A stretch of DNA of 64,000 bases from an uncultured Ferrovum sp. Its GTDB lineage: Bacteria > Pseudomonadota > Gammaproteobacteria > Burkholderiales > Ferrovaceae. The translations under genes and the position numbers were made by a program. The stretch covers positions 1 through 64,000 of the forward strand of contig CAITLJ010000002.1 of NCBI GenBank assembly GCA_903893215.1. The letters run 5' to 3'. This document shows positions 12,512-33,104 of this stretch, piece after piece; position 1 is the stretch's first letter; each line of letters begins with the position of its first letter. Below the pieces are notes generated by a model. That model was not told where the DNA came from, did no database searches, and saw only the letters and a list, made by a program, of their open reading frames with translations.

Positions 12512-12574
12512 AGCCCAGCTGCCAGCCGGTGAACTGGGCACCTCGCTGCCAGCGGGCCCCGAACCGGCAGGGAC

Positions 12575-13321
12575 CTAAATGTCGAGCCTGTACAACAAGC
12601 TGTACATGGCCAGCCCAAGGTCGACGTCGCTTTCCCGCACCAAGCCACCCTGCGTCGAGGTACGGATATGCGTTGTGAGCTTGAATGGCGAGGAGAAGGC
12701 AAACACCACCGAACTGTCCGACGTCACCGGGAATGCGGTACCCAGCACGTAGCCCCCGCCGCTGGTCGACTTCATGTCGACCCGGGTCTGGCCACCGCTG
12801 ACATTGTTACCGGCGTCGGTCATGCTGGTGCGCACGAACCGGGTATACCAGTAACCCAGGCCCACGTAGGGCCGGATCTGGCCCGGTTCACGGAAGTGGT
12901 ATTCCATAAAGCCGATGATCGGCACCGCGGTGCCCTTCAGCAGTGTTTGGCCATCATACAGGCGGCCATCGGGCAGAGTGCCCGGGTTGCGCACGCCCTT
13001 GGCAGAGAATTGCGGGGGAATGCCACCGATGCCTTCCAGCCTGAGATGGTCATTCAACTCCAGCGAATACGTCAGCAGGAAGGTATGCATGGGCTGCGTG
13101 TGATAGTTCAGCCCCGAGGGCGTCAGCGTGCTGCCGTTTCCCCCCGCGTTGTTGGGTGCGGGCGCCGTTTGCGCCAGATCGGTGTTGTGATCATGGGCAA
13201 TGATGTACGTCATCCCCAGACTGAGGGTGTCGGCGCAGCTGGCTATTGGTGCAGCAAGGACACAGGTGCCGAGTAAAGCAGCGGCCAGCCTGGCCGAACT
13301 GGAGGCAATGGGGCGATGCAT
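12575..13321 (-). CDS. OmpW-family outer-membrane protein
   Basis: A 248-residue secreted beta-barrel protein: a signal peptide of about 29 residues ('LLGTCVLAAPIASCA'), then alternating hydrophobic strands, 'YVGLGYWYTRF' in the middle, and a C-terminal strand 'GLAMYSLLYRLDI'. This is the OmpW-like fold, eight strands with a hydrophobic lateral exit. The family includes AlkL, which imports alkanes. It is longer than E. coli OmpW (212), mainly through an insertion after residue 40. It lies 41 bases behind the lipoprotein hydrolase in the same direction, so they are probably co-transcribed. A role in uptake of hydrophobic substrates is inferred from the family and from the alkane hydroxylase 10 kb away. 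Final-residue Ile instead of Phe is a mild deviation. Confidence 0.7.
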   Translation of the reverse strand: MHRPIASSSARLAAALLGTCVLAAPIASCADTLSLGMTYIIAHDHNTDLAQTAPAPNNAGGNGSTLTPSGLNYHTQPMHTFLLTYSLELNDHLRLEGIGGIPPQFSAKGVRNPGTLPDGRLYDGQTLLKGTAVPIIGFMEYHFREPGQIRPYVGLGYWYTRFVRTSMTDAGNNVSGGQTRVDMKSTSGGGYVLGTAFPVTSDSSVVFAFSSPFKLTTHIRTSTQGGLVRESDVDLGLAMYSLLYRLDI

Positions 13322-13362: not shown

Positions 13363-15318
13363 TTACTGGGCTTTGAAGTACTTCAGCGTGGCAGCCGCAC
13401 ACCAGCCCGGAAGCAGCTTGTAGGTGTAATCCACGCCGTACGAAAGCAGGGTCTGGTCCTTTGGCGTGGTCGCACCGGGTGTTCCGCCATTGGCCGCTTC
13501 CTGCTGCGCGTAGTAAGCCTGCACCGCTGCGCTGAACCCGTTGATTTCGGCGCTGTAATCAATGGTCGAGTTGGCGTGCGCCACCGAATTGGCACCTGCG
13601 GAATAACTCCAGGCCCCCGAAGCCAGGGGGGCACCGGCCGACCCCGCAGCGGGGACCATGCCGGGCAGATTGGCGTTGTCCAGGTTGACCACGACAACAT
13701 GCCCAGCGGCCACGTTTTGCGCCCCCCAATAGTGCGCCTGGTATTGGGAATTGATGAACAAGGCAGACGCATCAAAGCTGCCCTCACACATCATCACCGG
13801 CGCTTTCGGCACATAGCTGCGCATGTCGTTTGCTGCCAGGTGGGCACGCAGGTTGGCTGGCCCCACGCTGCCCTTCGGGTAGCTGGTGGCCGGGAACGTG
13901 GTGGGCCCCAACCCCAGATCGAAGGGCACGTCCAGGTCCGGATTCCTGCAGAAATCGGCCAAATAGTTGGCACGGAACGTGTTGTTGATCAGGTAATCGC
14001 TGTTGCTCTCAAAGGCTTTGGCAAACAGGAAGCCGATGTCGTACGAGACGAATGGTTCGGCCCCGCCCACCTTGGGCGGACTCAGCTGGTCAACAAATCC
14101 CTGACAGTCAAGCGACGTGAGCGTACTCCCCAGGTTGACGTTGAGCGAACTCAACAGACCGTAGCTAAGACCGTTCACCGTCAGATCCTGCAATCCCGCG
14201 GACAGCGGCGAATTGCTTGGGACGGTCGGAACGGTGGTCGGAAAAAAATCGGTGAGCGAAATGAAGTTCTTGGCTATCTGCTGCAGCCAGGTATAGACAC
14301 CGGGGCGTCCGAGGGTGTCGCCGCCTGTCGCCCCCGTGCTGAACATGGGACCGTAAGCGTCGCTTGGCGCGCTGTAGATGTCGCCGTAGGTGGTTTGATA
14401 GCTGCTCAGCAACATCGGCGTGTACAGCGTGGCACCACCCGGGACATTGCCAAGGAATTGCGCGTCATAAACAGCAGCAATCGGGTAGAAGCCGGCCATA
14501 GGCGCAACGGCGGTGACCGCCACCCCATGCGCTTCGAGGGCTTTTTGGGTGGCCAGCGCCACATACCCGCCTTCGTTGTAACCGGTCAGGAAAAGACGCC
14601 CGGAATCCAGCGTGTTGCCGCCAACGGTGGCCAGCGCCGAACGCCCGGCCACCAGGGTGTCGATCATTTCCTTCGAGTTCTGCACCGCGTTCAGGAACGC
14701 GTGGTAGTTGAGGGTGTTGCTGCCAAGGCTGGCCTGGTCATAGCCGGCATAATTGCTGGCGATGGCAATGTAACCCTGCGCAGCAAAGGTGGCGGCCATC
14801 AGCCCGCTCTCCTGAAAGCCCTCGTTGTTGGCCTCCGGCAGGATGTCGGCAATGTTGAAGGTTTTGGTGGTGCGGGCGGCGTGGGCGTACATCACGATGT
14901 CTCGTGCGCCCTCGCACTGGGTTCCGCCAAAGGGCACCATCAGCACCCCCGACGCCTGCGTGGCTTCGCCCAGCGCGCCTACCGTGGAGTAGACCAACTG
15001 GTAAACCTTGACGTTGCAGGGCAGATTGCCCTTCAGTGATGCGTACAGTTGCTGGCCGGCCAGCCCACCAATATTGGGATCCTGCAGCTGGGCACCCAAT
15101 GCCGAGGGGGACACGCTGGCCACCATGTAGGGGGGGTTGAATGCAAGTACGCCCCCGGAATCATTTCCGCCCAGCGAGGTGGACTGCCCGACCACTGCAC
15201 CGGTGGCCTGCGCGGAACCGGATGCAGACGTCGCCGTGCTGTTGAAACCGCCACCGCCACAACCCGCCAGCATAAGCGACAGGCCTACTGCGGCCAGCGA
15301 AAGGCAATTTTTGAACAT
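13363..15318 (-). CDS. Lipoprotein alpha/beta hydrolase (secretory-lipase-like) with Asn at the nucleophile position
   Basis: A 651-residue lipoprotein starting at ATG 15318 after GAGGGGA; the lipobox LMLAGC puts the lipidated Cys at residue 20, followed by GGGG and a Ser/Thr/Ala linker. The body resembles large bacterial secretory-lipase/peptidase-like hydrolases: 'IAIASNYAGYDQ' (about 185-195) and 'LFLTGYNEGGYVALATQKALE' (243-263). The second is the nucleophile elbow GxSxG, but the serine is Asn248 (codon AAC; AGC would be Ser). The two lipases at 25-29 kb keep GYSQGG. So it is either catalytically dead, uses another residue, or binds rather than cuts. Candidate acid and His residues lie in 'CEGSFDAS' and 'AAGHVVVV'. 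It is probably outer-membrane anchored and co-transcribed with the OmpW-like gene. Substrate unknown. Confidence 0.75.
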   Translation of the reverse strand: MFKNCLSLAAVGLSLMLAGCGGGGFNSTATSASGSAQATGAVVGQSTSLGGNDSGGVLAFNPPYMVASVSPSALGAQLQDPNIGGLAGQQLYASLKGNLPCNVKVYQLVYSTVGALGEATQASGVLMVPFGGTQCEGARDIVMYAHAARTTKTFNIADILPEANNEGFQESGLMAATFAAQGYIAIASNYAGYDQASLGSNTLNYHAFLNAVQNSKEMIDTLVAGRSALATVGGNTLDSGRLFLTGYNEGGYVALATQKALEAHGVAVTAVAPMAGFYPIAAVYDAQFLGNVPGGATLYTPMLLSSYQTTYGDIYSAPSDAYGPMFSTGATGGDTLGRPGVYTWLQQIAKNFISLTDFFPTTVPTVPSNSPLSAGLQDLTVNGLSYGLLSSLNVNLGSTLTSLDCQGFVDQLSPPKVGGAEPFVSYDIGFLFAKAFESNSDYLINNTFRANYLADFCRNPDLDVPFDLGLGPTTFPATSYPKGSVGPANLRAHLAANDMRSYVPKAPVMMCEGSFDASALFINSQYQAHYWGAQNVAAGHVVVVNLDNANLPGMVPAAGSAGAPLASGAWSYSAGANSVAHANSTIDYSAEINGFSAAVQAYYAQQEAANGGTPGATTPKDQTLLSYGVDYTYKLLPGWCAAATLKYFKAQ

Positions 15319-15804
15319 GAGTCCCCTCTTTCCTGTTGTATTTATGTGCTGCGGGGCGGTCATCGGGCGGCTCTGAATGGCCACTCTGCCCCTTCATGTC
15401 CTGAAGCAACGGCTGCCTGCCTGGTGCACCGCGCCTGCGGCCGACCGGACCACCGCAGCCCTTGGTTCCGCTTGAAACCGCAGCGCGCCATCTGTTGTCG
15501 ATGCTTGTGTCGCTGCTTGTCTACGCTTGTAGCTTAGTCATCGAATTTACATTTGTCCAGCCGGCACACAATTTAACAACAAGGAAACAACAGATATTTT
15601 TCAATAGCTTAGGGATACCCACGACAAACGGCATTTGAAATTACGTTTGAATCAAGGTCCACTTTCGCAAACCGTTATATGAATGTGACTTTTTGATAAA
15701 ACTAATAATTTAATACATTTAAAATCAATGAAAACAATTCTGGCGAACGCGCTGAACAACCGCCGCTTCGCCTCAACGCCGGAAAAGCAGCGCAAGAATG
15801 CCCT
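15319..15804. other. Gene-free stretch between the hydrolase and the rhamnolipid operon end
   Basis: 486 bases without a supported gene. The first 200 are GC-rich and hold the upstream region of the lipoprotein hydrolase. From about 15530 to 15745 the sequence turns strongly AT-rich with many A and T runs, unlike flanking genes. GCTTGT occurs three times at 15503, 15515 and 15525. A weak six-base stem (GGCGAA with TTCGCC, about 15743-15776) just beyond the EmrA-like stop could help end the rhamnolipid operon. No RNA gene or coding frame is recognised. Confidence 0.5.
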
Positions 15805-17052
15805 TCACTGACGCGCATGATGTTTTTCCCGCCCGCCACTGGCCGCGTCATCGCCTTGCTCGGGTGCAGTTTCCGGGTCAATGGCCGCAGGAGTGCGCGC
15901 CTGTTCGATCACCTGCGCGACGAGGGCATCGGCCTGCTGTTCGATATCATTCCTGAGCAGACTGGCGCGACCGCCGGCATGCACCGCATCCGACCCCAGC
16001 GGGATTTTTACGGCTTGCAGGGTATCGACGCTGACCGACATCGAGACCCCTATCCGCAGGGGATGCGCCTGCAGGTCGGCGTCATCGATGGCCACCAGCA
16101 CCGGCACCCGCTGCACCACCTTGATCCAGTTGCCGCTGGCGTTCTGCGGCGGCAACATCGAGAATGCGCTGCCGGTGCCCGCCGACATGCCCTCGATGTG
16201 CCCGTGAAACACCACATTGGCATCGTAGAGGTCGGAGGTGAGCGTGACCGGTTGGCCAATGCCCAGGTGCCGCAACTGACTTTCCTTGAAATTGGCCTCT
16301 ACCCACAGATGGCCCAGGGAAATGATCGACAGCAGGGGCACACCCGGTGCCACACGCTGCCCGATCTGCACGGAACGTTGGGCCACCACGCCTTCCACAG
16401 GCGCGCTGACCGTGGCCCGTCGGTAGTTGATATAGGCCAGCTTGAGTTGGGATGCGGCGAGCAGCACGGACGGATTCTTGTCGGCAGGCTGGTTGCCGCT
16501 TGAGGCGCGTGCGGCAGTCAGTTGTCCCGTGGCAGCGTCCAGGCTGGCCTGAGCCACGTCGACAGCTTCCCTGGCATGGGCCAGTTCTTCGGCGGTCACC
16601 ACCTCGCTGGCCGCATCACTGCGCGCCTTGAGCGCCTGTCTGGCGAGGGCGAGTTCGGCACGCCGACCTTCGATCACCGCCTTCAGCTGCTTCTGGTTCA
16701 GCCGCGCCCCGCGCGCGGTTGTCACGGCCTGCGCCAACTGGGCCTTGGCTTGCTCAAGGCTGGCCGCCACTTCGGCATCATCCAGTCGCACCAATACCTC
16801 GCCCGCCCGAACGTGGCGGGTGTTGTCAGCCAGCACCTCGGTCACCGTGCCCGGAATCTGCGCATTCAGTTGCACCACATCACCGGCCACATACGCATCG
16901 TCGGTATCTTCGTGCACGCTGCTGTACTGCCACCAGTTGAACCCGGCGCCCGCGCCCGCCAGCAGGATCAGCGCAAAAAACACCGCAAGACGGAAGCGGC
17001 GGAGCGTCCGCTTGGGTTGTACGGGATCATCGATGTTCATGGTCTGGTTCAT
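15805..17052 (-). CDS. EmrA/HlyD-type membrane fusion protein of the rhamnolipid operon
   Basis: A 415-residue periplasmic adaptor: short cytoplasmic N-terminus, one membrane helix (about 22-42), then 'EDTDDAYVAGDVVQLNAQIPGTV', the EmrA lipoyl/barrel entry. A long alpha-helical hairpin rich in Ala, Gln and Arg covers about 95-205, and 'ATVSAPVEGVVAQRSVQIGQRV' marks the return lipoyl half. The last 60 residues are a hydrophilic tail. EmrA proteins link an EmrB-type inner-membrane pump to an outer-membrane channel. It is last in the operon; the start overlaps the end of the outer-membrane factor gene by 26 bases. With the EmrB-like and NodT-like proteins it forms a full tripartite exporter, probably for rhamnolipid. 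Confidence 0.9.
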   Translation of the reverse strand: MNQTMNIDDPVQPKRTLRRFRLAVFFALILLAGAGAGFNWWQYSSVHEDTDDAYVAGDVVQLNAQIPGTVTEVLADNTRHVRAGEVLVRLDDAEVAASLEQAKAQLAQAVTTARGARLNQKQLKAVIEGRRAELALARQALKARSDAASEVVTAEELAHAREAVDVAQASLDAATGQLTAARASSGNQPADKNPSVLLAASQLKLAYINYRRATVSAPVEGVVAQRSVQIGQRVAPGVPLLSIISLGHLWVEANFKESQLRHLGIGQPVTLTSDLYDANVVFHGHIEGMSAGTGSAFSMLPPQNASGNWIKVVQRVPVLVAIDDADLQAHPLRIGVSMSVSVDTLQAVKIPLGSDAVHAGGRASLLRNDIEQQADALVAQVIEQARTPAAIDPETAPEQGDDAASGGREKHHARQ

Positions 17053-18612: not shown

Positions 18613-19557
18613 TCACGCGCGTCCCTGCAGGCGTATTGCCAGGTCCGGGCGGTTGTGATCGAGCGTCCCCAAGCGGCCCGCCAGCCCATCCAACAAGCCC
18701 AGGCGCATGCAGTTCAGTTTTTTTCGTTTGTCTGCTTCGAACAGGCACACCGCAAGCAGTTGGGTAAACACAACAAACATCAGCAGCATGGAGACGATCG
18801 GATAATGCCACGCCCGCCGCAGGACGAGGTGCACCGCGTTGCGGACAAAATAATACCGACGGCTGGGCGAATGGTTCATTGCGGTCAACGCAACAGGACC
18901 AACCTGGTGCCGGGCTTTTACCCCGATCTGATGCCGCATGACCAGACGGGGAACCACGAACACCGGCACGTTCAGCTGACGGGCGCGCAGGCAATACTCG
19001 GTATCCACATGATCAATCAACAAGGCCTCGTCAAAACGGCCCAGACGCAAGTAAGCCTGCCGCGACACCACGCTGCCCGACGTAATCAGAAAAGAGCAGG
19101 GCTCGGTTGGCGAGTCCTTGTTCAAGGCCAGGACTTGAAACAGAAGCCTTCGCACCCGCAACACCGGCAGGCAGGCACCAACGGCCGGCTCATAAATCAC
19201 AGGGCCGAGCATGAAAGCATCACCCTGGCGGCCGTCACATTCGGCCTGCATCACTGAAAAATAATCGTCTGGCAATTCGGAATCCTGATCCAGCAAGACC
19301 ACCGCATCAAAGGACTGGGCAAACAGGTGCGACAAGCCGCGATTCAGCGCTCCGGCGATACCGCCAAGATTGCCGTGATGCAGATACTGCACCCCGGCGC
19401 CCTGCAACAATGTGGCGCGCTGGAGGTCTGCATCCGGCGTGTTGTCGACCACCAGCACACAGGCACAACGCTGCGCGAGCGACACCACCCGGTGCAATTG
19501 TGGATCGGTCGGATGGTAAAGCACGGTCAGGGCCGCCAGTGGCTTGAAGGACTGCAT
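18613..19557 (-). CDS. rhlC: Rhamnosyltransferase 2 (dirhamnolipid synthase), GT2 family
   Basis: A 314-residue family 2 glycosyltransferase. The ATG at 19557 follows GAGG at good spacing and is preferred to a GTG at 19596 inside the upstream gene. Features: 'LTVLYHPTD' opening, 'VLVVDNTPD' sugar-nucleotide strand, 'NLGGIAGALNRGL', the DxD-like 'LLDQDSEL' and 'LLIDHVDTEYCLRAR', then 'RRYYFVRNAVHLV', typical of the rhamnosyltransferase branch that includes RhlC and RfbF-like enzymes. RhlC adds a second dTDP-L-rhamnose to mono-rhamnolipid. The C-terminal part has two hydrophobic helices (about 240-275), so it is likely membrane-associated. Its place after an EmrB-like gene and before NodT matches Burkholderia clusters. 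The assignment to rhlC rests mainly on rhlA and rhlB in the same operon. Confidence 0.85.
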   Translation of the reverse strand: MQSFKPLAALTVLYHPTDPQLHRVVSLAQRCACVLVVDNTPDADLQRATLLQGAGVQYLHHGNLGGIAGALNRGLSHLFAQSFDAVVLLDQDSELPDDYFSVMQAECDGRQGDAFMLGPVIYEPAVGACLPVLRVRRLLFQVLALNKDSPTEPCSFLITSGSVVSRQAYLRLGRFDEALLIDHVDTEYCLRARQLNVPVFVVPRLVMRHQIGVKARHQVGPVALTAMNHSPSRRYYFVRNAVHLVLRRAWHYPIVSMLLMFVVFTQLLAVCLFEADKRKKLNCMRLGLLDGLAGRLGTLDHNRPDLAIRLQGRA

Positions 19558-19564
19558 CCCGGCC

Positions 19565-21130
19565 TCAGTGTCCAAAGCCGTCAGTGGCTGCGCCACCCTG
19601 ACGGGGGCGCGTCAGCCAGACCAGCGCGGCCAGCAGCAGGAAGGTCCAGGACGTGAAATAAAATGCATCGTCGGTGGCCAGCATGTAGGCCTGCTGCTGG
19701 ACCAGATTGTCGAGCAGGCCCAATTGCCGCTGACCAACCATTCCCATCTGTTCCATGCTTCTGGTGAATGCATCCGTGCCCAATGACCCAGGCCGCACGC
19801 TGGCCGCAAGCGTGTTGTAGTGATGCGCGGCACGGTTGTCCCAGAACGAGACGCTCATCGCGGTGCCGAAGGCCGCGAACAAGGTGCGCAGGAAATTGGA
19901 CAGGCCGGATGCGGCAGCCAGCTTGTCCAGCGGCACCCGTGACAGGATGGCCGCCGACAAGGGAATGAAGAAGCAGGGCAAACCGATCCCCTTGACCAAC
20001 CCAGGGGTGAGCACCTGCAGCAGGGTCATGTTGAGAGCGAAGTGCGAACTCCACCAGAGGGCAAAAGCAAAGGTCAGGAAACCGAAGGACACCAGGACGC
20101 GCGGATCAAAGCGTTGGCCAAATATGGCGATCAGCACCGAGCACACCAGTGCTGTCGCCGCAATCGGGGCATTGGTCAATCCCGCCATCATGGCGCTGTA
20201 ATCCATCACGGTCTGCAACCAGAGCGGAACCAGCACGGCGATGATCGAGTAGGCCGCCACCGCCACACAGATGATCAGCACGCTGACCGAAAAATTGCTG
20301 TCGCGAAACACGCTCAGGTCGACGATCGGATGTTCCTCTGCAGGTTCCCAGATCAACAGGGCCGTGATCGACAGCACTGCGATGATCAGCAGACCGACAA
20401 TGGTGGTCGAGCCGAACCAGCCAAGGTCATGTCCAAGATCGAGCATGACCTGCAAGGCCGCCACACCCGCCACCAGCAGAAACAGTCCGGTCAGGTCGAC
20501 CGGTTCGCCTCGGACCACCTTGGTTTCACTGCCAATCAAGGCGACACACACCGCAAAGGAAAATATGCCGATCGGCAGGTTGATCAGAAAGATCCATGGC
20601 CAGGAGTAGTGGTCGACCAGCCATCCCCCAAGGATCGGCCCCACCACCGGGGCCACCATCACGGTCATCCCCCAGATCGCCAGGGCAATCACCCGCTTTG
20701 CGGGCGGAAATGTGCGCATCAGCATGGTTTGCGACAAGGGCACCATCGGGCCGGAAAACAGGCCCTGCGCCGCGCGACAGGCCACCAGCACATAAAAATT
20801 CCGGGTCAGTCCGCACAGCAATGAAAACAGCGTGAACAGCACCAATGACGAGACGAACAGGCGCTTTTCGCCAATGCGGCGGGACAACCAACCGGTCAGC
20901 GGCACGGCGATCGCCGAAGCCACCGAATAGGAGCTGATGATCCAGGTGCCCTGGCGGTTGGGCATACCCAATGCCCCGGACATGGCTGGAATGGCCACAT
21001 TGGTCACGGTGGCATCCAGCACCTCGATAAATGTTGCCAGCGACAGGCCAAGGGTCAGCAGGGCCAGAGGCAATCCGCTCAGATACGGCTGGCTGCCCTC
21101 TGCCGTATGGCCTGCGATCGCGGTGGTCAA
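19565..21130 (-). CDS. EmrB/DHA2-family MFS exporter of the rhamnolipid operon
   Basis: A 521-residue membrane protein with about 14 helices, the DHA2 (EmrB/QacA) layout. Motifs: 'FIEVLDATVTNVAIPAMSG' in helix 1 (the D1 motif), 'GWLSRRIGEKRLF' in loop 2-3 and 'GPILGGWLVDHYSWPWIFLINLPIG' (antiporter motif C). It overlaps the rhlB stop by four bases (ATGA) and ends a few bases before the preferred rhlC start. With the EmrA-like and NodT-like proteins it can form a proton-driven tripartite pump. The position between rhlB and rhlC strongly suggests that the cargo is rhamnolipid or its precursor, although broad drug efflux is also possible. Confidence 0.9.
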   Translation of the reverse strand: MTTAIAGHTAEGSQPYLSGLPLALLTLGLSLATFIEVLDATVTNVAIPAMSGALGMPNRQGTWIISSYSVASAIAVPLTGWLSRRIGEKRLFVSSLVLFTLFSLLCGLTRNFYVLVACRAAQGLFSGPMVPLSQTMLMRTFPPAKRVIALAIWGMTVMVAPVVGPILGGWLVDHYSWPWIFLINLPIGIFSFAVCVALIGSETKVVRGEPVDLTGLFLLVAGVAALQVMLDLGHDLGWFGSTTIVGLLIIAVLSITALLIWEPAEEHPIVDLSVFRDSNFSVSVLIICVAVAAYSIIAVLVPLWLQTVMDYSAMMAGLTNAPIAATALVCSVLIAIFGQRFDPRVLVSFGFLTFAFALWWSSHFALNMTLLQVLTPGLVKGIGLPCFFIPLSAAILSRVPLDKLAAASGLSNFLRTLFAAFGTAMSVSFWDNRAAHHYNTLAASVRPGSLGTDAFTRSMEQMGMVGQRQLGLLDNLVQQQAYMLATDDAFYFTSWTFLLLAALVWLTRPRQGGAATDGFGH

Positions 21131-22449
21131 ACCGCTCCCCCGGATATCTGCGCGGCAGGGTTCTGACCCGCCGTTGCAAAGTCCTTCACGCCTGCCCTGC
21201 CCTGCAAAATCCTGCGGCGCAGTACCTGTTCGATGAAATCTGCCGCAGCGGCACCACCCGGCGGTTCGGCCAGCAAGCGGTCACGATAACGCGCGCTCTG
21301 CACCCGATAGCTGGGGTCAGCAAGCATGCGTTGCAGCGCCCGGGCCAAGGTATCTTGCGCCAGGGGCGCATCCAGACGCACGCCACAACCGCTTTGCGCA
21401 ACACGTTGTGCGTTGTCGAACTGGTCATGGGCGAAGGGCGTGACCAACTGAGGCACACCAGCGGCATAGGCAAGCGCTGCCGTGCCAACGCCGCCATGGT
21501 GGACGAGGATACGGCAATGCGGCAACAAGGCATCCAGCGGGACAAAGGAGCGAACTGCGAGATGACTGCCGGCATACCGGGCACAGGCGGGGTCGGGGGT
21601 CAGCCAGATGCCACGTTGTCCGGTCAGCGCCAGTGCGTGCCGGATGCACGCAAAAAAATGGGCGTCGTCAGCAAGCGTGGAGCCTGCGGTGAAAATCACT
21701 GGCGGCGGTCCTTCCGCCAGATAGGCCAGCAAATCGGAATCGAGCGCCGATCCTTCGCTGAACATGGGGAATCCGCTCAGGAAGGCCTGCGCCGGCCAGT
21801 CGGGCTGCGGCGCAGCGAACCAGGCGGGAAAGAGGCACAGCACGCCATCGGGCGAATGCATCCAGCGGGTGAAGATGCGTTTGACCGGGGGCAGGTTGAG
21901 TTGCCTGCGCAGGTCGTTGGTGGCTGGACCAAACAGACGATCCAGCAGCAGGCGATCAATGCCGTGAATCAGCAGCCGACGCAAGGGTAGCGGCAGCCAG
22001 CGCGGCAGGCCAATCCGCTTGTGGGTGGGGGGCGCATGGGCCGACAGCAAGGTGGAGGGGGAGATCTGCACAGAGACAAAGGGTACCTGATCGCACTCCT
22101 GAACCATACGGGCCGACCAGGCCCAGAGCGTTCCCACGATCACGGTGTCCTGATCCACAGCCCGTCGCAGGTCGTGAAAGAGTTCGGGCAAGGTTGGTGC
22201 AATCAGACCCCAAAGGGTACGCAGGGAGGTGCGCGGGTTCCATAGCGCAGGGTCGCGCATACCGGCCTCGTAGTGCTCGGCCGAACCGATCGCCAGAAAC
22301 TCGAACCCCTGCCGGCGCACCAGCAGTTCGAACGGGGCATGGGTAGCGAACACCACCCGGTGGCCCCGTTGCTGCAGAACGCGCGCAATCCCGATCAACG
22401 GAAAGACGTCGCCGGCTGAGCCGATAGCTACAACGAGAATTCTGGACAT
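21127..22449 (-). CDS. rhlB: Rhamnosyltransferase 1 catalytic subunit
   Basis: A 440-residue GT-B glycosyltransferase closely resembling Pseudomonas aeruginosa RhlB as I recall it: 'AIGSAGDVFPLIGIARVL' opening, 'WNPRTSLRTLWGLIAP', 'QISPSTLLSAHAPP', 'KRIFTRWMHSP' and 'GVLCLFPAWFAAPQPDWP', then the donor-site region 'HHGGVGTAALAYAAGVPQLV' and 'AHDQFDNAQRV'. RhlB joins dTDP-L-rhamnose to 3-(3-hydroxyalkanoyloxy)alkanoic acid (HAA) to give mono-rhamnolipid. The ATG at 22449 gives the expected first beta strand. The C-terminus is about 15 residues longer than in P. aeruginosa. In P. aeruginosa rhlB directly follows rhlA; here a methyltransferase-like gene separates them. Confidence 0.95.
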   Translation of the reverse strand: MSRILVVAIGSAGDVFPLIGIARVLQQRGHRVVFATHAPFELLVRRQGFEFLAIGSAEHYEAGMRDPALWNPRTSLRTLWGLIAPTLPELFHDLRRAVDQDTVIVGTLWAWSARMVQECDQVPFVSVQISPSTLLSAHAPPTHKRIGLPRWLPLPLRRLLIHGIDRLLLDRLFGPATNDLRRQLNLPPVKRIFTRWMHSPDGVLCLFPAWFAAPQPDWPAQAFLSGFPMFSEGSALDSDLLAYLAEGPPPVIFTAGSTLADDAHFFACIRHALALTGQRGIWLTPDPACARYAGSHLAVRSFVPLDALLPHCRILVHHGGVGTAALAYAAGVPQLVTPFAHDQFDNAQRVAQSGCGVRLDAPLAQDTLARALQRMLADPSYRVQSARYRDRLLAEPPGGAAAADFIEQVLRRRILQGRAGVKDFATAGQNPAAQISGGAV

Positions 22450-22502: not shown

Positions 22503-23072
22503 TCACAGCACGCCGGGAATCAGCGCAGCCACTTCCTTGCTGTAGCGTTGATAGCTGCCCCCGAAATACTCGGTCAGCCAATGCTCTTCCTTGCGCACCT
22601 TGTAGAACAGAGAGGCGAAAATCAGAAGTAAGCCCACCACGCCGCGCCATTCGCCGCCGATCAGCACATCGCCCGCCAGGGCCAGCAGGCAACCGGTATA
22701 GATCGGATGGCGGACCACACGATAGGGACCTGTGCGCACCAGTTCATGGTTTTCCTTTAGCGTCACCGACACGCTCCAGTTGGTACCCAGATGGATGCGC
22801 CCCCAGGCAGAAAACAGCAAACCGACCACGGCCACCGCAAACCCAACCCATTGCAGGGAATGCACCACACTCCAGTCCGGGTTGAACGCGGCCAGGCTGG
22901 GGGCAGGACAACTGATCAGCATGCCACCGGCAATCAGCGGCAGGGCCTGGTAGGTACGCGAGCGGCTTTCTTCCATCCGCGCGGTGGCCTTGGTGGCCCC
23001 CGCACTCAGTACCCAATACGCCAGCCAGAGCGTCCACGGAAACAGGATCAACAAAAACTGCACAATATTCAT
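22503..23072 (-). CDS. Isoprenylcysteine carboxyl methyltransferase (ICMT)-family membrane protein inside the rhamnolipid operon
   Basis: A 189-residue membrane protein with about five helices. The start is taken at ATG 23072 ('MNIVQFLLILFPWTLWLAYW'), because a longer form adds a hydrophilic stretch unlike the family. It carries the ICMT/PEMT C-terminal signature: 'LVRTGPYRVVRHPIYTGCLLA' (the RHPxYxG cofactor loop) and 'KEEHWLTEYFGGSYQRYSKEV' (E-E...FG..Y..Y). Eukaryotic ICMT transfers methyl from S-adenosylmethionine to the carboxylate of a lipidated C-terminus; bacterial members are mostly uncharacterised. It lies 75 bases after rhlA and 53 before rhlB, same direction, so it is probably co-transcribed. 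HAA and rhamnolipids are lipids with a free carboxylate, which makes O-methylation a reasonable but untested guess. Confidence 0.85.
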   Translation of the reverse strand: MNIVQFLLILFPWTLWLAYWVLSAGATKATARMEESRSRTYQALPLIAGGMLISCPAPSLAAFNPDWSVVHSLQWVGFAVAVVGLLFSAWGRIHLGTNWSVSVTLKENHELVRTGPYRVVRHPIYTGCLLALAGDVLIGGEWRGVVGLLLIFASLFYKVRKEEHWLTEYFGGSYQRYSKEVAALIPGVL

Positions 23073-23147
23073 GATGGAAGACCGCAAAAATTGGGGTACG
23101 CCGCGCTCGGGCGAGCACGGCATGAAGATGGATTCAGACCGGGTGGC

Positions 23148-24107
23148 TCAACCCTGATTCGGGACGAAGCCGTCAGCCTGCAGCAGGGACCGGATGTTAC
23201 CCAGCAAGGACGTCTGGTGCGCACGCAGGGTGCTGCCTGCCATACCTTCCCTGGCAACGGTCTCGCGCCCGAAGCTCTCCTCGGCGAAGAACTGCAGTGT
23301 CTCGCCCCTCAGCAACTCGCGCTGCTCCTTGCCTTCGAGGTCGATGAAGTGGCCGCAGCCGGGCAACACCGAAAACCGGGCCTGACGGATGTAGTTGCCC
23401 AGCTCAAGCACATCGGCAGGTGTGGTGTACTCGTCCTGATCGCCATTGACGAACAGGACCGGGCATTCGATGTGCCGGAACACGTCGATATATTTCTCGC
23501 GATCCAGGCCAAGCACCTGATCAATATGGAACACAATCTGTGCACCGAAGGGCCCTTTGGGCAACCTGGCCAGATAGCGATAGTTCTGCAGCCAGATCAG
23601 GCGGGGCAGATACTTGCCGACCGTGTCGTTCAGCAGCTTTGCGGCTTCACCGTACTGGTTGGCAATCACCAGTTGGCGCGCGCCCAGGGCGTAGTCGCGC
23701 ATGGCGTCGTTGACGACCGGCGAAAACGAACAGATGGCTGCCCGGCGGATACGGGTCTGCCCGCTTCCCAGTGCCAGCAGGGCCGACACCCCTCCCCAGG
23801 ACACAGAAGCCAACAGCGTGGCCTGAAAACGGTCGATCACTTCGACCAGGATGTCGGCCTCGTCCTGCACTGTCAGAAGACCTTCGTGACCGGCGTTGAG
23901 CGCCCGCGACTGACCGGCGTGCGGGAGGTCATAACAGATCGCGTTGTAGCGTTCAGTCACGTACCTCAGGGTCACCCCGAACGACGCGGTGGTTGCCAGC
24001 GCCCCGTTCACCAGAACAATCGTTTCAAAGTCCGGATTGACCAGATGGCGCTCAACATGAATGCGCAAGCCACTGGACAACTGCACCACAAGATTTTCTG
24101 TCTTCAT
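23148..24107 (-). CDS. rhlA: 3-(3-hydroxyalkanoyloxy)alkanoic acid synthase RhlA
   Basis: A 319-residue alpha/beta-hydrolase-fold enzyme. The ATG at 24107 follows GGGAGGT with eight-base spacing and gives 'MKTENLVVQLSSGLRIHVER', matching the RhlA N-terminus. Diagnostic segments: 'LVNGALATTASF', 'YDLPHAGQSRALN', the nucleophile elbow 'SVSWGG' (Ser in SxSWGG), 'LLNDTVGKYLPRL', 'FHIDQVLGL', 'FVNGDQDEYTT' with the likely Asp, and 'GHFIDLE' with the likely His. RhlA condenses two 3-hydroxyacyl-ACP or -CoA units into HAA, the lipid half of rhamnolipid and itself a surfactant. It is the first gene of the seven-gene operon. No clear lux/rhl box was found upstream. Confidence 0.95.
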   Translation of the reverse strand: MKTENLVVQLSSGLRIHVERHLVNPDFETIVLVNGALATTASFGVTLRYVTERYNAICYDLPHAGQSRALNAGHEGLLTVQDEADILVEVIDRFQATLLASVSWGGVSALLALGSGQTRIRRAAICSFSPVVNDAMRDYALGARQLVIANQYGEAAKLLNDTVGKYLPRLIWLQNYRYLARLPKGPFGAQIVFHIDQVLGLDREKYIDVFRHIECPVLFVNGDQDEYTTPADVLELGNYIRQARFSVLPGCGHFIDLEGKEQRELLRGETLQFFAEESFGRETVAREGMAGSTLRAHQTSLLGNIRSLLQADGFVPNQG

Positions 24108-25002
24108 TTTGCCTACCTCCCCGCGCCCAGCAATCAAATGATTGAATCGATCTTCCGAGATGGATCCATACAGACTGACGACTGTGTTTTCTGGTCAATT
24201 ATTTTATTTTTTCAAAACCAAACAGTGCGACAAAACACAAATATATTAACGCTTTAAATGAAAATTGATTTACTGAAAGCCCGCCGATTCATGCCTGCAA
24301 GATCACTATCACTCGTGCCAGTCATTCCTTCAGGGAAAGCATCTTTTGTTTCTCAGGACGCTTGCGACAAGATCACGCGTCATTGCCCCTTCATTCGGCC
24401 TGAGCACGCGGACATGCACCGGACATTCGAAACATTGAGTAGATCTTAATTACGAACCAGTCGTTTGTCGAGAACCCTGTATCAACTAATTTTATTTAAA
24501 CAGCGTTTGGTTTCAGAGGCTTGCAATCCAAATCAACCCGATTGCGAAGCCGGCTAACTTAAGAAACAGGCGCAATGCTGCCTTTCAATTGAAGCTTAGG
24601 TCAGGAATAAAAAATCGCGAGATAAGGTCTGTAGCTTTTTGTAAACAGGCAATGCACGGAAAGGCCGTGGATTTGCAAAAAAAATGAATTAAGCAAAGTC
24701 ACGGCCTGAACTGCAATGACAAGCGCTGACGCAGGTTGATACCGCGGCCTTGTTCACTGAATGGATCGGCGCGTCGACTTCGACAAACAGGCCAGGCTAA
24801 CGGATACCACCTGCGATCCGGGCGACAAAACAGAGTGAATGATCTGTTAAAACGCTCCCAACCACCTTTCAGCTTGAACCGCCACGTCATCCATCGGGAC
24901 GCCTTGATCTGCCCTATGGACGCACCACCCCCTCAGCCCTCCCCTAACCAGCCGTAAGCCCCCCTTTGCGGCGATCTCACCAGGCGTGCGCTGTGGACTT
25001 CC
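24108..25002. other. Long AT-rich gap upstream of rhlA
   Basis: 895 bases without a supported gene. The right part follows the stop of the first lipase gene; the left part must hold the rhl operon promoter. From about 24160 to 24700 the base composition is clearly more AT-rich than the genes. A 63-codon open frame at 24258-24449 shows no family features and is not called. A 46-base imperfect hairpin lies at 24662-24707. No classic two-fold lux box and no confident -35/-10 pair were identified. Confidence 0.5.
24662..24707. other. Stem-loop in the rhlA-lipase gap
   Basis: AGGCCGTG (24662-24669) pairs perfectly with CACGGCCT (24700-24707). After one G-T wobble and one mismatch, TTTGC (24672-24676 region) pairs with GCAAA. 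The 16-base loop is almost all A and T. It lies about 295 bases beyond the first lipase stop, too far for an ordinary terminator. It might mark a small RNA or processing site. Confidence 0.35.
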
Positions 25003-26817
25003 TCACCAAGCCACTGACGCAGGCGGCGTGACGCTAAAGGTGAAGGTCTGGCCCGCTCCGGCTATCAGCGAACTGAACAGCGAGCAGCCTGCGCCGGTGA
25101 GCGGCGGGATGGTGGTCGTGCCGGGGAAAGTCAGCGCACCGCTTCCAAGCGCTGACACCGGACCGTCAAAATTCAGCGGGAATTGCACCGGATTTGCAGT
25201 CGTGCACTTGGTGCCGTAACCGGCCAAGGTGATATTGGCGCTTGTGGTGCCATGGATATGCAACTGACCGCTGTTATCCAGGCTGACCGTTCCGACGATC
25301 GGATTCGACTGTTGGATCATCAGGTCGAAAGTGAACGGGAAGAACACCCAAACGGTTGCAGAAAATGGCGGGATGACCAGGTTGCCTTGCAATTTTTGAT
25401 TGGTCAGGTCGGTCGCTGCAGTCATGGTGCTGCCTGCTGGCAGGTTCACCGTTTGACCAAGGCTCTTGAGGGTCAGCGAACCACCGAGGGTCCAGTCATT
25501 CAGCGACACCACGTAGGCGCCCCCGCCTTTGTTGGCAGTGGACTGGGGCGCTGGCGCTTTTTCCGTGCAATTCCCAGTGACTGTCGCCCCGGCAAAACGC
25601 TGGCCCAGCCACGCCACGGTCTTGGCTGCTGCCTGGAACTGGGTGACGATATGCTCGCTCGGGTATAGGTCAAATGTCACATTTGGGTTGTTCTGACAGT
25701 AAGTTTGCTTGAGCAGCTCGGCCTGACCGAGCGGTATGAACTCATCGGCCTGGCCGTGGTACAGGTACAACGGCACCTTGATGCTGCTTCCCCACTGCCC
25801 GAGGTTCTGCGCCTCCAGCGCAAAGAAGAGGCCTGGCAAGGCAAAGGCATCCCCCAGCAGGTTGGGCAATGACGCACCCGCCACCGTATAATTCAGGACA
25901 TCCGCGTTCATCAGGGTGAACAACGACTGGAACACGCACTGCGACTCGGCCGTCTTTGCAGCGGCCTGCCCAGCCGTGTTCAGCAAGGTATTCAATGGGA
26001 CTTCGGCAGGGTACTGGGTACCCAGACCGATCAGACCACCAAACAGGAACGAGGCACCGGTGCTGCCTTCCAGATTCAGGCCACTGGCCAGAAAATCACC
26101 GGGCACGCCACCGGCCGCCACACCGACCAGCTTGAGGTTCGGCACATAATCCGCTTGCTGCTGGCCGGCCCATGCAGCGGCTTGGCCGCCCTGTGAGTAC
26201 CCCCAGACCGCCACCGGTGAGTCTGCACTGAACCCCACCGGCACGGGGATCTGGTGTGCCGCCTGCACGATATCCAGCACCGCATGGCCCTCCGACACAC
26301 CGGCCAGGTAGGTCGGCGTTTGACCGGTCGTATAGCCCGCGTAATCCGGAACGAGCACCGAGTAACCCGCCTTCAGGGCGGCTACAATATTGGCGTTCTC
26401 GTAATCCGTGCCCTGCGCAAACTGCATCGACGGCGCGCAACCCTGGGCGAGACCGTGGGTGCCCACCGCATAGGCCACAATCGGACGCGGACCGCTGCCG
26501 GCCCAGGAGGCCACCGGCTGAAAGACCGTGCCGGTCACGGCGTTGGCGACGCCGTTTGCATCGGTGGACTGATAAAGCACGTTCCAGGCATTGGCTGCAG
26601 GTGCACCCGCCCCAAGACTGACCGGTGCGCTGCGATACCAGATCAGGTCGCCGTGATGTCCCGATTGCACCAGGGCGGGGGGCGCATAAAAAGCCGCGCC
26701 TGACGGGCCTGCGACTGGCACGGCAAGCGCCCCGGTTGGTGCAAACAGCGAACCGAAAGCCAAGCTGAGCGAAACGCCGAGCACGCAACGCGCACGCTGT
26801 CCATAGGACTGGAACAT
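25003..26817 (-). CDS. Secreted lipase (LIP family), paralogue 1
   Basis: A 604-residue secreted protein. The ATG at 26817 follows GGGAGAG; a Sec signal peptide ends near 'GALAVP' (about residue 32). Residues 45-400 are a secretory-lipase alpha/beta hydrolase: 'WNVLYQSTDANG', 'PIVAYAVGTHGLAQGCAPS', 'VLVPDYAGYTTG', the nucleophile elbow GYSQGG with Ser208, the acid in 'HGQADEFIPL' and the His in 'PSEHIVTQF'. The last 180 residues form a separate beta-rich, Thr/Ser/Gly-rich domain ending 'PPASVAW', of unknown role, perhaps attachment or substrate binding. The family includes triacylglycerol lipases, but activity on esters or polyesters cannot be told apart here. It is a near-copy of the next gene. 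Confidence 0.85.
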   Translation of the reverse strand: MFQSYGQRARCVLGVSLSLAFGSLFAPTGALAVPVAGPSGAAFYAPPALVQSGHHGDLIWYRSAPVSLGAGAPAANAWNVLYQSTDANGVANAVTGTVFQPVASWAGSGPRPIVAYAVGTHGLAQGCAPSMQFAQGTDYENANIVAALKAGYSVLVPDYAGYTTGQTPTYLAGVSEGHAVLDIVQAAHQIPVPVGFSADSPVAVWGYSQGGQAAAWAGQQQADYVPNLKLVGVAAGGVPGDFLASGLNLEGSTGASFLFGGLIGLGTQYPAEVPLNTLLNTAGQAAAKTAESQCVFQSLFTLMNADVLNYTVAGASLPNLLGDAFALPGLFFALEAQNLGQWGSSIKVPLYLYHGQADEFIPLGQAELLKQTYCQNNPNVTFDLYPSEHIVTQFQAAAKTVAWLGQRFAGATVTGNCTEKAPAPQSTANKGGGAYVVSLNDWTLGGSLTLKSLGQTVNLPAGSTMTAATDLTNQKLQGNLVIPPFSATVWVFFPFTFDLMIQQSNPIVGTVSLDNSGQLHIHGTTSANITLAGYGTKCTTANPVQFPLNFDGPVSALGSGALTFPGTTTIPPLTGAGCSLFSSLIAGAGQTFTFSVTPPASVAW

Positions 26818-27007
26818 GAAAAAACTCTCCCTGATTTGTTTCGGTTTGAACCGGCCAGACAGCTCAACAAAGACCAATCGGTTTTTTTGAAAATAAATTC
26901 ATTTGCGCCCTGTCTTTTAATGAAGGCTAAAAATAACCGTTTGTTTTTATTAGAAATTAACACTACGCTTGACCAAGTCTGGCGCATTCTGAACAGACCA
27001 AATTCCA

Positions 27008-27183: not shown

Positions 27184-29028
27184 TTACCAGGCGACCGGCG
27201 CAGGCGGCTTGACGGTAAAGGTGAAGGTCTGGCCGGGCCCGGACATCAATGCGCTGAACAGCCCGCTCCAGATACTGCAACCGGTCAACTGGGGAATGGT
27301 GGTGGTGCCCGAAAAACTGAGCGCACCGCTACCCAGCGCAGAGACCGGCCCGTCGAAGTTGAGCGGAAACTGCACAGGCGCCGAGGTCTGACAACCAAAA
27401 CCGATCTGCAAGCTGCCTTCGCCGGCCGAGGTCAGGGTGATATTGGCACTTGCGGTACCGTGAATGTGCAGTTGCCCGCCATTGTCCAGGCTCACCGTAC
27501 CGGCAATCGGACTGGCCTGCTGGATGGACAGATCGACTGTGGTCGGGATGCCGAGCACCGCGATACTGGCGGCAAACGGCGGGATCGCCAGATTGCCCCC
27601 CAGTGTCTGACTCGTCAGATTCGTGGTGGCCGTCATGGTGCCTCCGGCCGGCAGCGGGACCGTCTGGCCAAGGTTCTTGATGGTGACCGAACCACCCAGA
27701 GTCCAACCGTTCAACGAAACCACGTAATCACCGCCACCCTTGTTGGCCGTGGTGGTGGGTGCCGCCGCAGATTCGGAGCAATTGCCGGAGGCAGGGACAC
27801 CTGCAAAGCGCTGACCGAGCCATGTCAGGGCTTTGTTTGCCGCCTGAAACTGGGTGACGATATGTTCGCTCGGGTACAGGTCGAACGTTACATTGGGGTT
27901 GTTCTGGCAGTAGGTTTCTTTCAGGACTTCTGCCTGGCTAAGCGGAATGAACTCGTCGGCCTGACCGTGATAGAGGTAGAGGGGCGCCTTGATGCTGCTA
28001 CCCCACTGGCCGAGGTTCTGCGCCTCCAGAGCAAAAAACAGGCCCGGCAGTGCAAAGGCATCCCCCAGCAGGTTGGGCAATGACGCCCCTGCCACCGTGT
28101 ACGTCAGGACGTCGGCATTCATCAGGGTGAACAGCGACTGGAACACGCACTGCGACTCGGCCGTTTTCGCAGCCGCCTGCCCGGCAGTATTCAACAGGGT
28201 ATTCAGGGGCACTTCGGCAGGATATTGGGTGCCGAGACCGATCAGACCGCCAAACAGGAATGAAGCCCCCGTGCTGCCCTCCAGATTCAGGCCGCTGGCC
28301 AGAAAATCACCGGGCACCCCCCCCGCAGCCACACCGGCCAGCTTGAGGGTTGGCACATATGCAGCTTGCAGCTGGCCGGCCCAGGCCGCTGCCTGACCAC
28401 CTTGCGAATAGCCCCACAGGGCAACCGGCGCTGCGCTGCTGAAGCCCTGCGCACCGGGAATCTGCTGTGCGGCCTGCACGATGTCCAGCACCGCGTGACC
28501 TTCGGACACGCCCGCCAGATAGGTCGGGATTTGTCCGGTGGTATAGCCCGCATAGTCAGACACCAGTACCGAGTAGCCCGCCTTGAGGGCGGCCGCGATG
28601 TTGGCGTTCTCGTAGTCCGTGCCTTGCGAAAATTGCAGGGACGGTGCACAGCCCTGGGCCAGACCATGGGTGCCGACGGCATAAGCAATCACAGGGCGTG
28701 CGCCGCTGCCGTTCCAGGCGGCGGACGGAGTAAACACCGTACCGGTGACGGCATTCGCCACCCCGTTCGCATCGGTGGACTGGTAGAGCACATTCCAGGC
28801 ATTGGCGGCAGGTGCCCCCGTACCCAGATTCACCGTCGCACTCCGGTACCAGATCAGGTCGCCATGATTTCCGGTGGGCACCGCAGCAGGCGGGACGTAA
28901 AAAGCTGCGCCAGCGGGCGCCATGCTTGGCGCGGCAAGCGCCGGGAGGGGCGCCGCGAGCGCCCCGACAGCCAAGCCAATCAAAACACCCATCGTGCGAA
29001 GCGCACGCATACCGCAATGCTGACCCAT
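27184..29028 (-). CDS. Secreted lipase (LIP family), paralogue 2
   Basis: A 614-residue secreted protein with an ATG preceded by GGAGGAG. The signal peptide runs to about residue 32 ('LPALAAPSM'). The catalytic domain is almost co-linear with paralogue 1: 'AYAVGTHGLAQGCAPS', 'VLVSDYAGYTTG', GYSQGG with Ser208, 'HGQADEFIPL' and 'PSEHIVTQF'. The C-terminal beta-rich domain is about 10 residues longer and has diverged more ('GWTLGGSVTIKNLGQTV', ending 'KPPAPVAW'). It has its own promoter and a strong terminator, so the two copies are separate transcription units. Divergence mainly in the tail suggests different targets or binding partners. Confidence 0.85.
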   Translation of the reverse strand: MGQHCGMRALRTMGVLIGLAVGALAAPLPALAAPSMAPAGAAFYVPPAAVPTGNHGDLIWYRSATVNLGTGAPAANAWNVLYQSTDANGVANAVTGTVFTPSAAWNGSGARPVIAYAVGTHGLAQGCAPSLQFSQGTDYENANIAAALKAGYSVLVSDYAGYTTGQIPTYLAGVSEGHAVLDIVQAAQQIPGAQGFSSAAPVALWGYSQGGQAAAWAGQLQAAYVPTLKLAGVAAGGVPGDFLASGLNLEGSTGASFLFGGLIGLGTQYPAEVPLNTLLNTAGQAAAKTAESQCVFQSLFTLMNADVLTYTVAGASLPNLLGDAFALPGLFFALEAQNLGQWGSSIKAPLYLYHGQADEFIPLSQAEVLKETYCQNNPNVTFDLYPSEHIVTQFQAANKALTWLGQRFAGVPASGNCSESAAAPTTTANKGGGDYVVSLNGWTLGGSVTIKNLGQTVPLPAGGTMTATTNLTSQTLGGNLAIPPFAASIAVLGIPTTVDLSIQQASPIAGTVSLDNGGQLHIHGTASANITLTSAGEGSLQIGFGCQTSAPVQFPLNFDGPVSALGSGALSFSGTTTIPQLTGCSIWSGLFSALMSGPGQTFTFTVKPPAPVAW

Positions 29029-31112: not shown

Positions 31113-33104
31113 ATGAATACGACCTACCCCCCGAGTGAACCGATGTCACTGAACGAGAACCTTCGTTCGATGCGCCGCCGCCGCGGTGGACGGGGCACCC
31201 GCCTGGTCATCGCCGTGCTGTCATTGCTGGTCATGGCCGGCGCGCCACTAGGTTCGCTTCAGGCCGCCACCAGTCCGGCCACCGTGGCAGCACCAAGCCC
31301 CAGCGTGCCAGCCAGCCTACCCGGTCTGCCCGGCATCTCCGGTCAGACCGCGCTGATTGGCGCCAGGGCGCCGCGCTCGGGCAGCCCGTGCGCCCGTCCG
31401 GCCGCTGGCAGCGTCATCCCGCAACCGGTGCACCTCTACAGCAGCGCCGGCGTGCTTAGCGTGCATCTGGATTATTACGAAGATTTTGATGCCAACGGCA
31501 ACGCCACGTTCTGTTTTCTGGACGTGAACGGCAACCAGGCACCAATCCTGCACGGCAAGCCGGGCGACACATTTAACATCGAGGTCACCAACCGCGTGCC
31601 ACCGCTGTTTCCTGGCACACCATCGGATACCCTGCTGCAGGCTGGCATCCCTACCGTCCCTGCCACCGCCACCAAACCCGCCGTTGCCGGCAACCAGTGC
31701 GGCGAGCAGTATCAGTTCGCCATGGACCCTTCCTCGGTTAACCTGCATTTTCACGGCTTTCTGGTCACGCCGCGCTGCCAGTCGGACAACGTCGCGCACA
31801 CGGTGATCGCGGCTGGAGACACCTTTGAATATTCCTTCCCGATTCCTGCCAACGAGCCCCCAGGCCTGTATTGGTTCCATCCGCACGTGCATGGGGGTGG
31901 CGAACAGTCGGTGCAGGGTGGTGCCTCCGGTGAACTGATCATCGACGGCATCGAAAACTTCCACCCCGAGGTGTCTGGCCTGCCCGAACGCGTGCTGGTG
32001 TTTCGCGACGCGCTGATCGGCCCGAATGCCCCTGCGCCAGTGCCCTACGGCACGGTACCGACCTGGGACGTGTCGCTCAATTACGTGCCGGTCAACTACA
32101 CCAGCGCCACCACCACTCCGGCCTACACGGCGCCGGGGGTGATTGAGATGCAAGCCGGACACCCCGAGTTCTGGCGGGTGGCCAACGCCGCGGCGGATGC
32201 CATCCTCGACTTTCAGGTGCTATACGACGGTGTGGCGCAGCCTGTGGCGATCGTCGCTATGGATGGCGTTCCCGTCAACGTGGAAAACGGTGTCGTCACC
32301 GGTGCGCCGATTGTCAAGACCACGATCTCGTTGCCTCCGGCACAGCGTGTCGAGTTCATCGTGGCGCCGCCGGGTCCCAATGTGAAGGTTGCAGTCATCC
32401 AGTTGCTCAACGTAGACACCGGACTGTTTGGTGATACCAACCCAAGCCGCACCCTGGCCACCATTGCGACCCAGCGCACGGCAACAGGCCTGCCCACCAT
32501 GCCGATTGTCAACGTGCTGAACCTGCTGAAGACCTGGCCGCAGCGCTTCGCTGGCCTCGCCAACGCGCCGGTGACGGCCACCCGTACCTTGTATTTCAAG
32601 GAGGTGTTGCAGGATCCGACCAATCCCAACACCAGCCCCACAAATTTCTACATGAGCGTGGAAGGCACGCCTGATGCACTCTACGTACCCAATATTGCGC
32701 CCGTGATCACCACCAAGGTAGGGGCCGTAGAAGTATGGACGGTGCAGAACCGTGCGCTTGAAGCCCACGTGTTTCACATCCATCAGATCCACTACCTGAT
32801 GCAGGCGGTGAATGGTGTGACGCTGCCGCCCGCGGACCAGCAACTGCACGACGACTACACCATTCCTGGCTGGAAGCCGCCGGTCGACGGCGGTGGCTCA
32901 CCTTGGGACCCCGCCACTGGCCTGCTGTTTGCCAACATGAGCGCCGCCCAGCAGACGGCTTACCTGAAGAAGTATCCCTACCCCAGCATCACAGCCAAGT
33001 TTGATTTTCGGGACCCGTCGATCGTCGGAGACTTCGTGTTCCATTGCCACATCCTGGCACACGAGGACCAGGGCATGATGGCGGTGATGCGCGTCACACC
33101 CTGA
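31113..33104 (+). CDS. Secreted multicopper oxidase (laccase-like)
   Basis: A 663-residue exported protein; AAGGAC precedes the ATG. Residues 20-52 are an Arg-rich start and hydrophobic core ending 'SLQAATS'; the run of arginines is Tat-like but not a classic twin-arginine motif. All four copper-binding motifs are visible: HFHG (212-215), WFHPHVHGG (254-262), 'HVFHIHQIHYL' and HCH at 644-646 with His650 and axial Met655 in the C-terminal 'HCHILAHEDQGMM'. The set supports type 1, 2 and 3 copper sites. Likely role: oxidation of phenolics, metal ions or other small substrates with oxygen outside the cytoplasm. A Pro/Ala-rich linker (53-75) precedes the first domain. No copper-resistance partner gene is adjacent, so CopA is less likely. 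Confidence 0.9.
   Translation: MNTTYPPSEPMSLNENLRSMRRRRGGRGTRLVIAVLSLLVMAGAPLGSLQAATSPATVAAPSPSVPASLPGLPGISGQTALIGARAPRSGSPCARPAAGSVIPQPVHLYSSAGVLSVHLDYYEDFDANGNATFCFLDVNGNQAPILHGKPGDTFNIEVTNRVPPLFPGTPSDTLLQAGIPTVPATATKPAVAGNQCGEQYQFAMDPSSVNLHFHGFLVTPRCQSDNVAHTVIAAGDTFEYSFPIPANEPPGLYWFHPHVHGGGEQSVQGGASGELIIDGIENFHPEVSGLPERVLVFRDALIGPNAPAPVPYGTVPTWDVSLNYVPVNYTSATTTPAYTAPGVIEMQAGHPEFWRVANAAADAILDFQVLYDGVAQPVAIVAMDGVPVNVENGVVTGAPIVKTTISLPPAQRVEFIVAPPGPNVKVAVIQLLNVDTGLFGDTNPSRTLATIATQRTATGLPTMPIVNVLNLLKTWPQRFAGLANAPVTATRTLYFKEVLQDPTNPNTSPTNFYMSVEGTPDALYVPNIAPVITTKVGAVEVWTVQNRALEAHVFHIHQIHYLMQAVNGVTLPPADQQLHDDYTIPGWKPPVDGGGSPWDPATGLLFANMSAAQQTAYLKKYPYPSITAKFDFRDPSIVGDFVFHCHILAHEDQGMMAVMRVTP

Follow-up and report, generated by a model that had tools for sequence, protein, structure and literature searches.

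A very probable rhlM methyltransferase gene in the rhl operon of an uncultured Ferrovum sp.

Described RhlM and rhl systems

The methyl-ester rhamnolipid chemistry of RhlM is already published: in the sections of Liu et al. 2024 (PMC11069360) drawn on here, the name rhlM was given to the ICMT-family gene that Paraburkholderia kirstenboschensis F3 carries downstream of rhlA (locus tag RW095_02150). Its deletion abolished the rhamnolipid methyl esters, with unmethylated rhamnolipids and HAA still being produced; complementation brought the methyl esters back, and D3-methionine labelled them (PMC11069360). According to the same sections, the F3 delta-rhlB strain yielded HAA, with neither rhamnosylated products nor methylated HAA detected; di-rhamnolipid was proposed as the likely main substrate of RhlM, and its residues H122 and E162 were named as SAM-contacting. 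RhlM is described there as widespread in Burkholderia, Paraburkholderia and Caballeronia, with close homologues in Rhodanobacter, Flavobacteriia and Chitinophagia; the early-branching Robbsia is listed with rhl genes and without RhlM (PMC11069360).

The present analysis concerns a gene on contig CAITLJ010000002.1 of an uncultured Ferrovum sp. (the window, i.e. the whole stretch of DNA that was analysed, comprises 64,000 nucleotides). The encoded protein resembles F3 RhlM, as characterized in the cited sections of PMC11069360, in its affiliation to the ICMT family, the gene position downstream of rhlA, the numbering of H122 and E162 and the product to be expected, a rhamnolipid methyl ester; it differs in that the window genome and the Burkholderia-type genome G309 belong to different families and that the protein is diverged (54-66% identity to 20 aligned relatives). 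The rhl operons of Burkholderia arboris, B. stagnalis and B. cenocepacia contain the same seven genes as the window in identical order and orientation, at protein identities of approximately 43-66%. The operon on plasmid p932p of Burkholderia glumae (rhlA-rhlB-MFS-rhlC-OMF-adaptor) agrees with that of the window in these six genes but is devoid of rhlM. More distant in sequence are the ICMT of Methanosarcina acetivorans (4a2n) and the eukaryotic ICMT (5vg9), which share the family by profile search and the SAM-site motif with the window protein, whereas their methyl acceptor is another one or unknown.

Gene and operon structure

The gene order on the minus strand of the window is rhlA-rhlM-rhlB-MFS-rhlC-OMF-adaptor. 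The individual features are as follows (identities refer to the 60 RhlM loci of named bacterial genomes described below):

23148 to 24110 (open frame extends to 24137), minus strand: rhlA, HAA synthase; identity to RhlA of the 60 named loci 45-59% over the best-matching stretches
22503 to 23072, minus strand: very probable rhlM, ICMT-family integral membrane methyltransferase of 189 aa; assigned by profile search, homologue alignment and tree
21127 to 22449, minus strand: rhlB, rhamnosyltransferase 1; identity 51-62% over the best-matching stretches across the 60 named loci
19565 to 21130, minus strand: DHA2/EmrB-type MFS exporter; profile matches, gene order as in Burkholderia
18613 to 19596, minus strand: rhlC, rhamnosyltransferase 2; TIGR01556 passed with 206.7 bits versus a cut-off of 200.55
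17027 to approximately 18634 (frame open to 18994, exact start uncertain), minus strand: outer membrane efflux protein (OEP); profile match, Burkholderia gene order
15805 to 17052, minus strand: HlyD/EmrA-type periplasmic adaptor; last gene common to the window and the Burkholderia operon

The open frame around rhlM extends from 22503 to 23123 on the minus strand (206 aa), and the 189-aa protein starts from the ATG at 23072; this position is the likely start codon because three Burkholderia homologues begin with the same MNIVQ. The protein matched the Pfam family ICMT (PF04140) with an E-value of 6.6e-14 (52.5 bits, cut-off 24) and Pfam PEMT with 49.5 bits (cut-off 25); the NCBIfam equivalog model for protein-S-isoprenylcysteine O-methyltransferase (NF040696) was not reached (91.7 bits versus a cut-off of 160). 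A first-pass annotation, made from the letters of the window, had placed an ICMT-family membrane protein with RHPxYxG and EE...FG..Y..Y motifs between rhlA and rhlB, and this description was borne out by the PF04140 match, the length of 189 aa, the minus-strand position and the motifs themselves (RHPIYTG at 121-127; EE at 162-163 and FG at 170-171, followed by ..Y..Y); its coordinates and neighbouring genes were likewise correct. Its account of the surroundings as an rhlA-rhlB-exporter-rhlC operon holds for the genes named but is incomplete, as the outer membrane efflux protein and the HlyD/EmrA-type adaptor follow. A chance open frame was ruled out by the conservation of the gene in 64 operon-borne homologues.

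The intergenic gaps of 75 bases (rhlA to rhlM) and 53 bases (rhlM to rhlB) would suit a single transcript. Scanning for promoters and terminators yielded six promoter-like sites versus 2.5 expected and seven terminator-like sites versus 9.9 expected. A composition foreign to the window was rejected, with a G+C content of 60-64% in the operon genes and of 62% in the window; the agreement speaks against very recent acquisition from a compositionally different donor.

Further genes flank the operon. Upstream, two tandem secretory-lipase genes (PF03583 LIP) are located at 25003-26877 and 27184-29028 on the minus strand, with a mutual identity of 79% across 616 columns; the 60 named RhlM loci contained no homologue of the first lipase (25003-26877). 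Downstream, a 673-aa protein encoded at 13363-15384 (minus strand) appears by eye to be secreted and serine hydrolase-like; it had no Pfam match at an E-value of 0.001 or better. A second copy of the multicopper oxidase gene at 31113-33104 (plus strand), with 88% identity to it, is located on contig C6 of the window genome, and the product of 33464-35509 (minus strand) combines four stretches of bacterial Ig-like repeats with a Phi_1 (phosphate-induced protein 1) domain. The latter domain is known mostly from plants.

Assignment to RhlM and proposed reaction

The window protein was 64-66% identical over 99% of its length to the homologues of B. arboris, B. stagnalis and B. cenocepacia (the three best matches, on plasmid and chromid records), and 54-66% identical to 20 aligned relatives. 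In a tree of 91 rows (loci L004-L016 included, L017-L022 left out; L001, L003 and L107 are duplicates of other rows), it formed one group with 64 operon-borne RhlM proteins (support 99/95), and the 26 other ICMT proteins were placed outside. H122 and E162 of the SAM site, numbered as in the cited sections of PMC11069360, were invariant in 64/64 RhlM, but they occur also in 25/26 (H122) and 26/26 (E162) of the other ICMT proteins and thus mark the wider family and do not single out RhlM. In contrast, Q42 and C128 were common to the window protein and 64/64 RhlM and absent from all 26 other ICMT proteins in the alignment, in which some of the 26 are short. A profile built from 21 RhlM sequences found ICMT 4a2n (E-value 3.2e-17) and 5vg9 as the best relatives of solved structure; the AlphaFold model of the window protein, moderate in quality (pLDDT 79, residues 100-120 below 50) and composed mostly of long helices, gave 4a2n as the first-ranked Foldseek match (TM 0.56, E-value 0.014). 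On these comparisons, the gene is very probably rhlM, i.e. encodes a known enzyme.

The scan of named bacterial genomes retrieved 60 RhlM loci, labelled Burkholderia, Paraburkholderia or Caballeronia; as a hit needs one of two short exact peptide patterns, the scan favours close relatives. The search for ICMT genes in the neighbourhood of rhlA that had been suggested for this locus therein gave a uniform picture: rhlA precedes and rhlB follows rhlM on the same strand in 60/60 loci. All seven genes were present in 56 of the 60; three loci are truncated by the contig end (L048, L058, L074), and L104 departs after rhlB, with rhlC directly next. The initial notion that the gene is missing from known rhl operons of Burkholderia is therefore wrong as a generality and holds for B. 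glumae.

According to the proposed mechanism, RhlA would join two 3-hydroxyacyl chains to HAA, which RhlB and RhlC would glycosylate with dTDP-L-rhamnose as the rhamnose donor. Located in the inner membrane, RhlM would then use SAM to methylate the free carboxylate of the resulting (di-)rhamnolipid; the product, a rhamnolipid methyl ester of non-ionic character, would, judging from the operon, be exported by the MFS protein, the adaptor and the outer membrane protein. The supply of dTDP-rhamnose is plausible because an RmlC-family dTDP-sugar isomerase gene is present in the window genome. That the gene is rhlM and that its product methylates the carboxylate of (di-)rhamnolipid in this host, the ester then being exported, is considered highly likely. 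Methyl ester production by the window host would follow by orthology, the reaction itself having been shown in Paraburkholderia (cited sections of PMC11069360). ICMT-type methylation of either HAA or rhamnolipid had been envisaged beforehand: the rhamnolipid alternative has been demonstrated for RhlM, with which the window gene groups, but HAA is a less likely acceptor, given that the cited sections of PMC11069360 record no methyl-HAA in the delta-rhlB strain.

Two other readings have to be weighed against this assignment. The window enzyme might be an RhlM orthologue that acts mainly on HAA or mono-rhamnolipid, not on di-rhamnolipid. Such a preference would be in line with its terminal branch, the longest among the grouped RhlM proteins (0.59), and with the strong divergence of the operon proteins; indeed, because the window copy is located on long branches in the RhlM tree and in the RhlA/RhlB/RhlC tree (1.63), its substrate preference may have shifted. 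The location of rhlM directly after rhlA and ahead of rhlB and rhlC could be read in the same sense, but the Burkholderia relatives show the same gene order, rhlC is present and intact in the window, and the F3 delta-rhlB strain made HAA without detectable methyl-HAA (PMC11069360, as cited); the reading is accordingly judged improbable. Still less credible, to the point of being hardly tenable, is a generic ICMT/PEMT-like membrane methyltransferase that would act on another substrate (protein or membrane lipid) and reside in the operon by chance. The nearly equal Pfam scores for ICMT and PEMT would fit this idea, as would a second, distant ICMT-family gene elsewhere in the same genome (contig C7; 6799-7068 of the 14-kb locus L127, minus strand), which shares approximately 30% identity with RhlM across 91 columns. 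Against it stand the constant operon position in the 60 named loci and the placement of the window protein with RhlM in the tree. Furthermore, the 14-kb locus of the C7 gene contained no other rhl genes, and no further gene of the operon was present in the 14-15 kb loci (L122-L126, L129) of six more distant ICMT relatives, which show 35-51% identity in the aligned part, nor in the 3.5-kb loci of distant ICMT genes (L108-L118). RhlM acting on (di-)rhamnolipid is thus retained as the preferred assignment.

Host, distribution and history of the operon

The window genome (3.27 Mb) belongs to family f1, and the Burkholderia-type genome G309 to family f32 of the same order, probably the Burkholderiales. 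Among 60 relatives of the window genome, 31 of them of the same family, there was no RhlM-like match better than an E-value of 1.1e-14 (29% identity) and no RhlA match better than 2.6e-9 (29% identity). At an E-value of 1e-30 or better, the RhlM profile matched 3/399 genomes of the order, 4/369 of the class and 9/398 of the phylum (overlapping samples, each count including the window's genome, with scoring confined to the top 8 or 9 candidates of each genome); among the matching genomes besides the window's, other operon genes were located beside the match in G309 only, the RhlM of which is positioned on a zero-length branch among Burkholderia. What is new here is, in modest terms, the host: a member of another family whose examined relatives lack the cluster.

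Synteny with the congeners G001 and G002 comprised approximately 4.2 to 12.5 kb of the window and did not extend into the rhl region (14.9 kb marks the end of the G001 contig); with G038, a member of another family, it likewise reached 12.5 kb and no further. The breakpoint lies at approximately 12500-12600 of the window, and the OmpW-like gene, the hydrolase gene and the rhl operon are all located beyond it, in a variable segment. Since synteny ends before the rhl region, the latter would represent a variable segment that was either gained here or lost elsewhere. A contaminant contig as the source of the operon was rejected: the left flank is syntenic with G001 and G002, and the multicopper oxidase of the right flank is 74-75% identical in G001 (a multi-copy gene).

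The history of the operon was addressed by two sets of trees. In the free RhlM tree, the window copy was nested among the Burkholderia rows (89/90); the tree in which the 64 Burkholderia-type rows were held together was 4.13 log units better and not rejected (p-AU 0.645). The RhlA/RhlB/RhlC trees covered the window, B. glumae, 22 loci out of the 63 named or plasmid ones with RhlM and, represented by RhlA alone, Halomonas and P. mandelii; in the careful version (26 rows), the window branched off outside the Burkholderia rows at a support of only 51/22, window and outgroup both being long branches. The trees therefore do not show that all Burkholderia copies group to the exclusion of the window operon. 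B. glumae grouped with RhlM-bearing rows (90/94) in the RhlA/RhlB/RhlC tree and, for this reason, a loss of rhlM would fit in this species; the presence of rhl genes without RhlM in Robbsia, as given in the cited sections of PMC11069360, rather favours a later gain. That the complete rhlM-bearing operon crossed, or long predates, the family boundary of Burkholderia, with a diverged enzyme that may prefer HAA or mono-rhamnolipid, is regarded as unlikely.

If the window operon should branch outside all Burkholderia copies, rhlM would be ancestral to the operon, and the plain anionic rhamnolipids (e.g. those of B. glumae) would result from rhlM loss. With better sampling, the window sequence could help to establish in which order rhl operons gained and lost rhlM, and its divergence could help to define the substrate-binding residues of RhlM. 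The chemistry being already known, the locus adds a probable methyl-ester rhamnolipid producer lineage outside the Burkholderia group.
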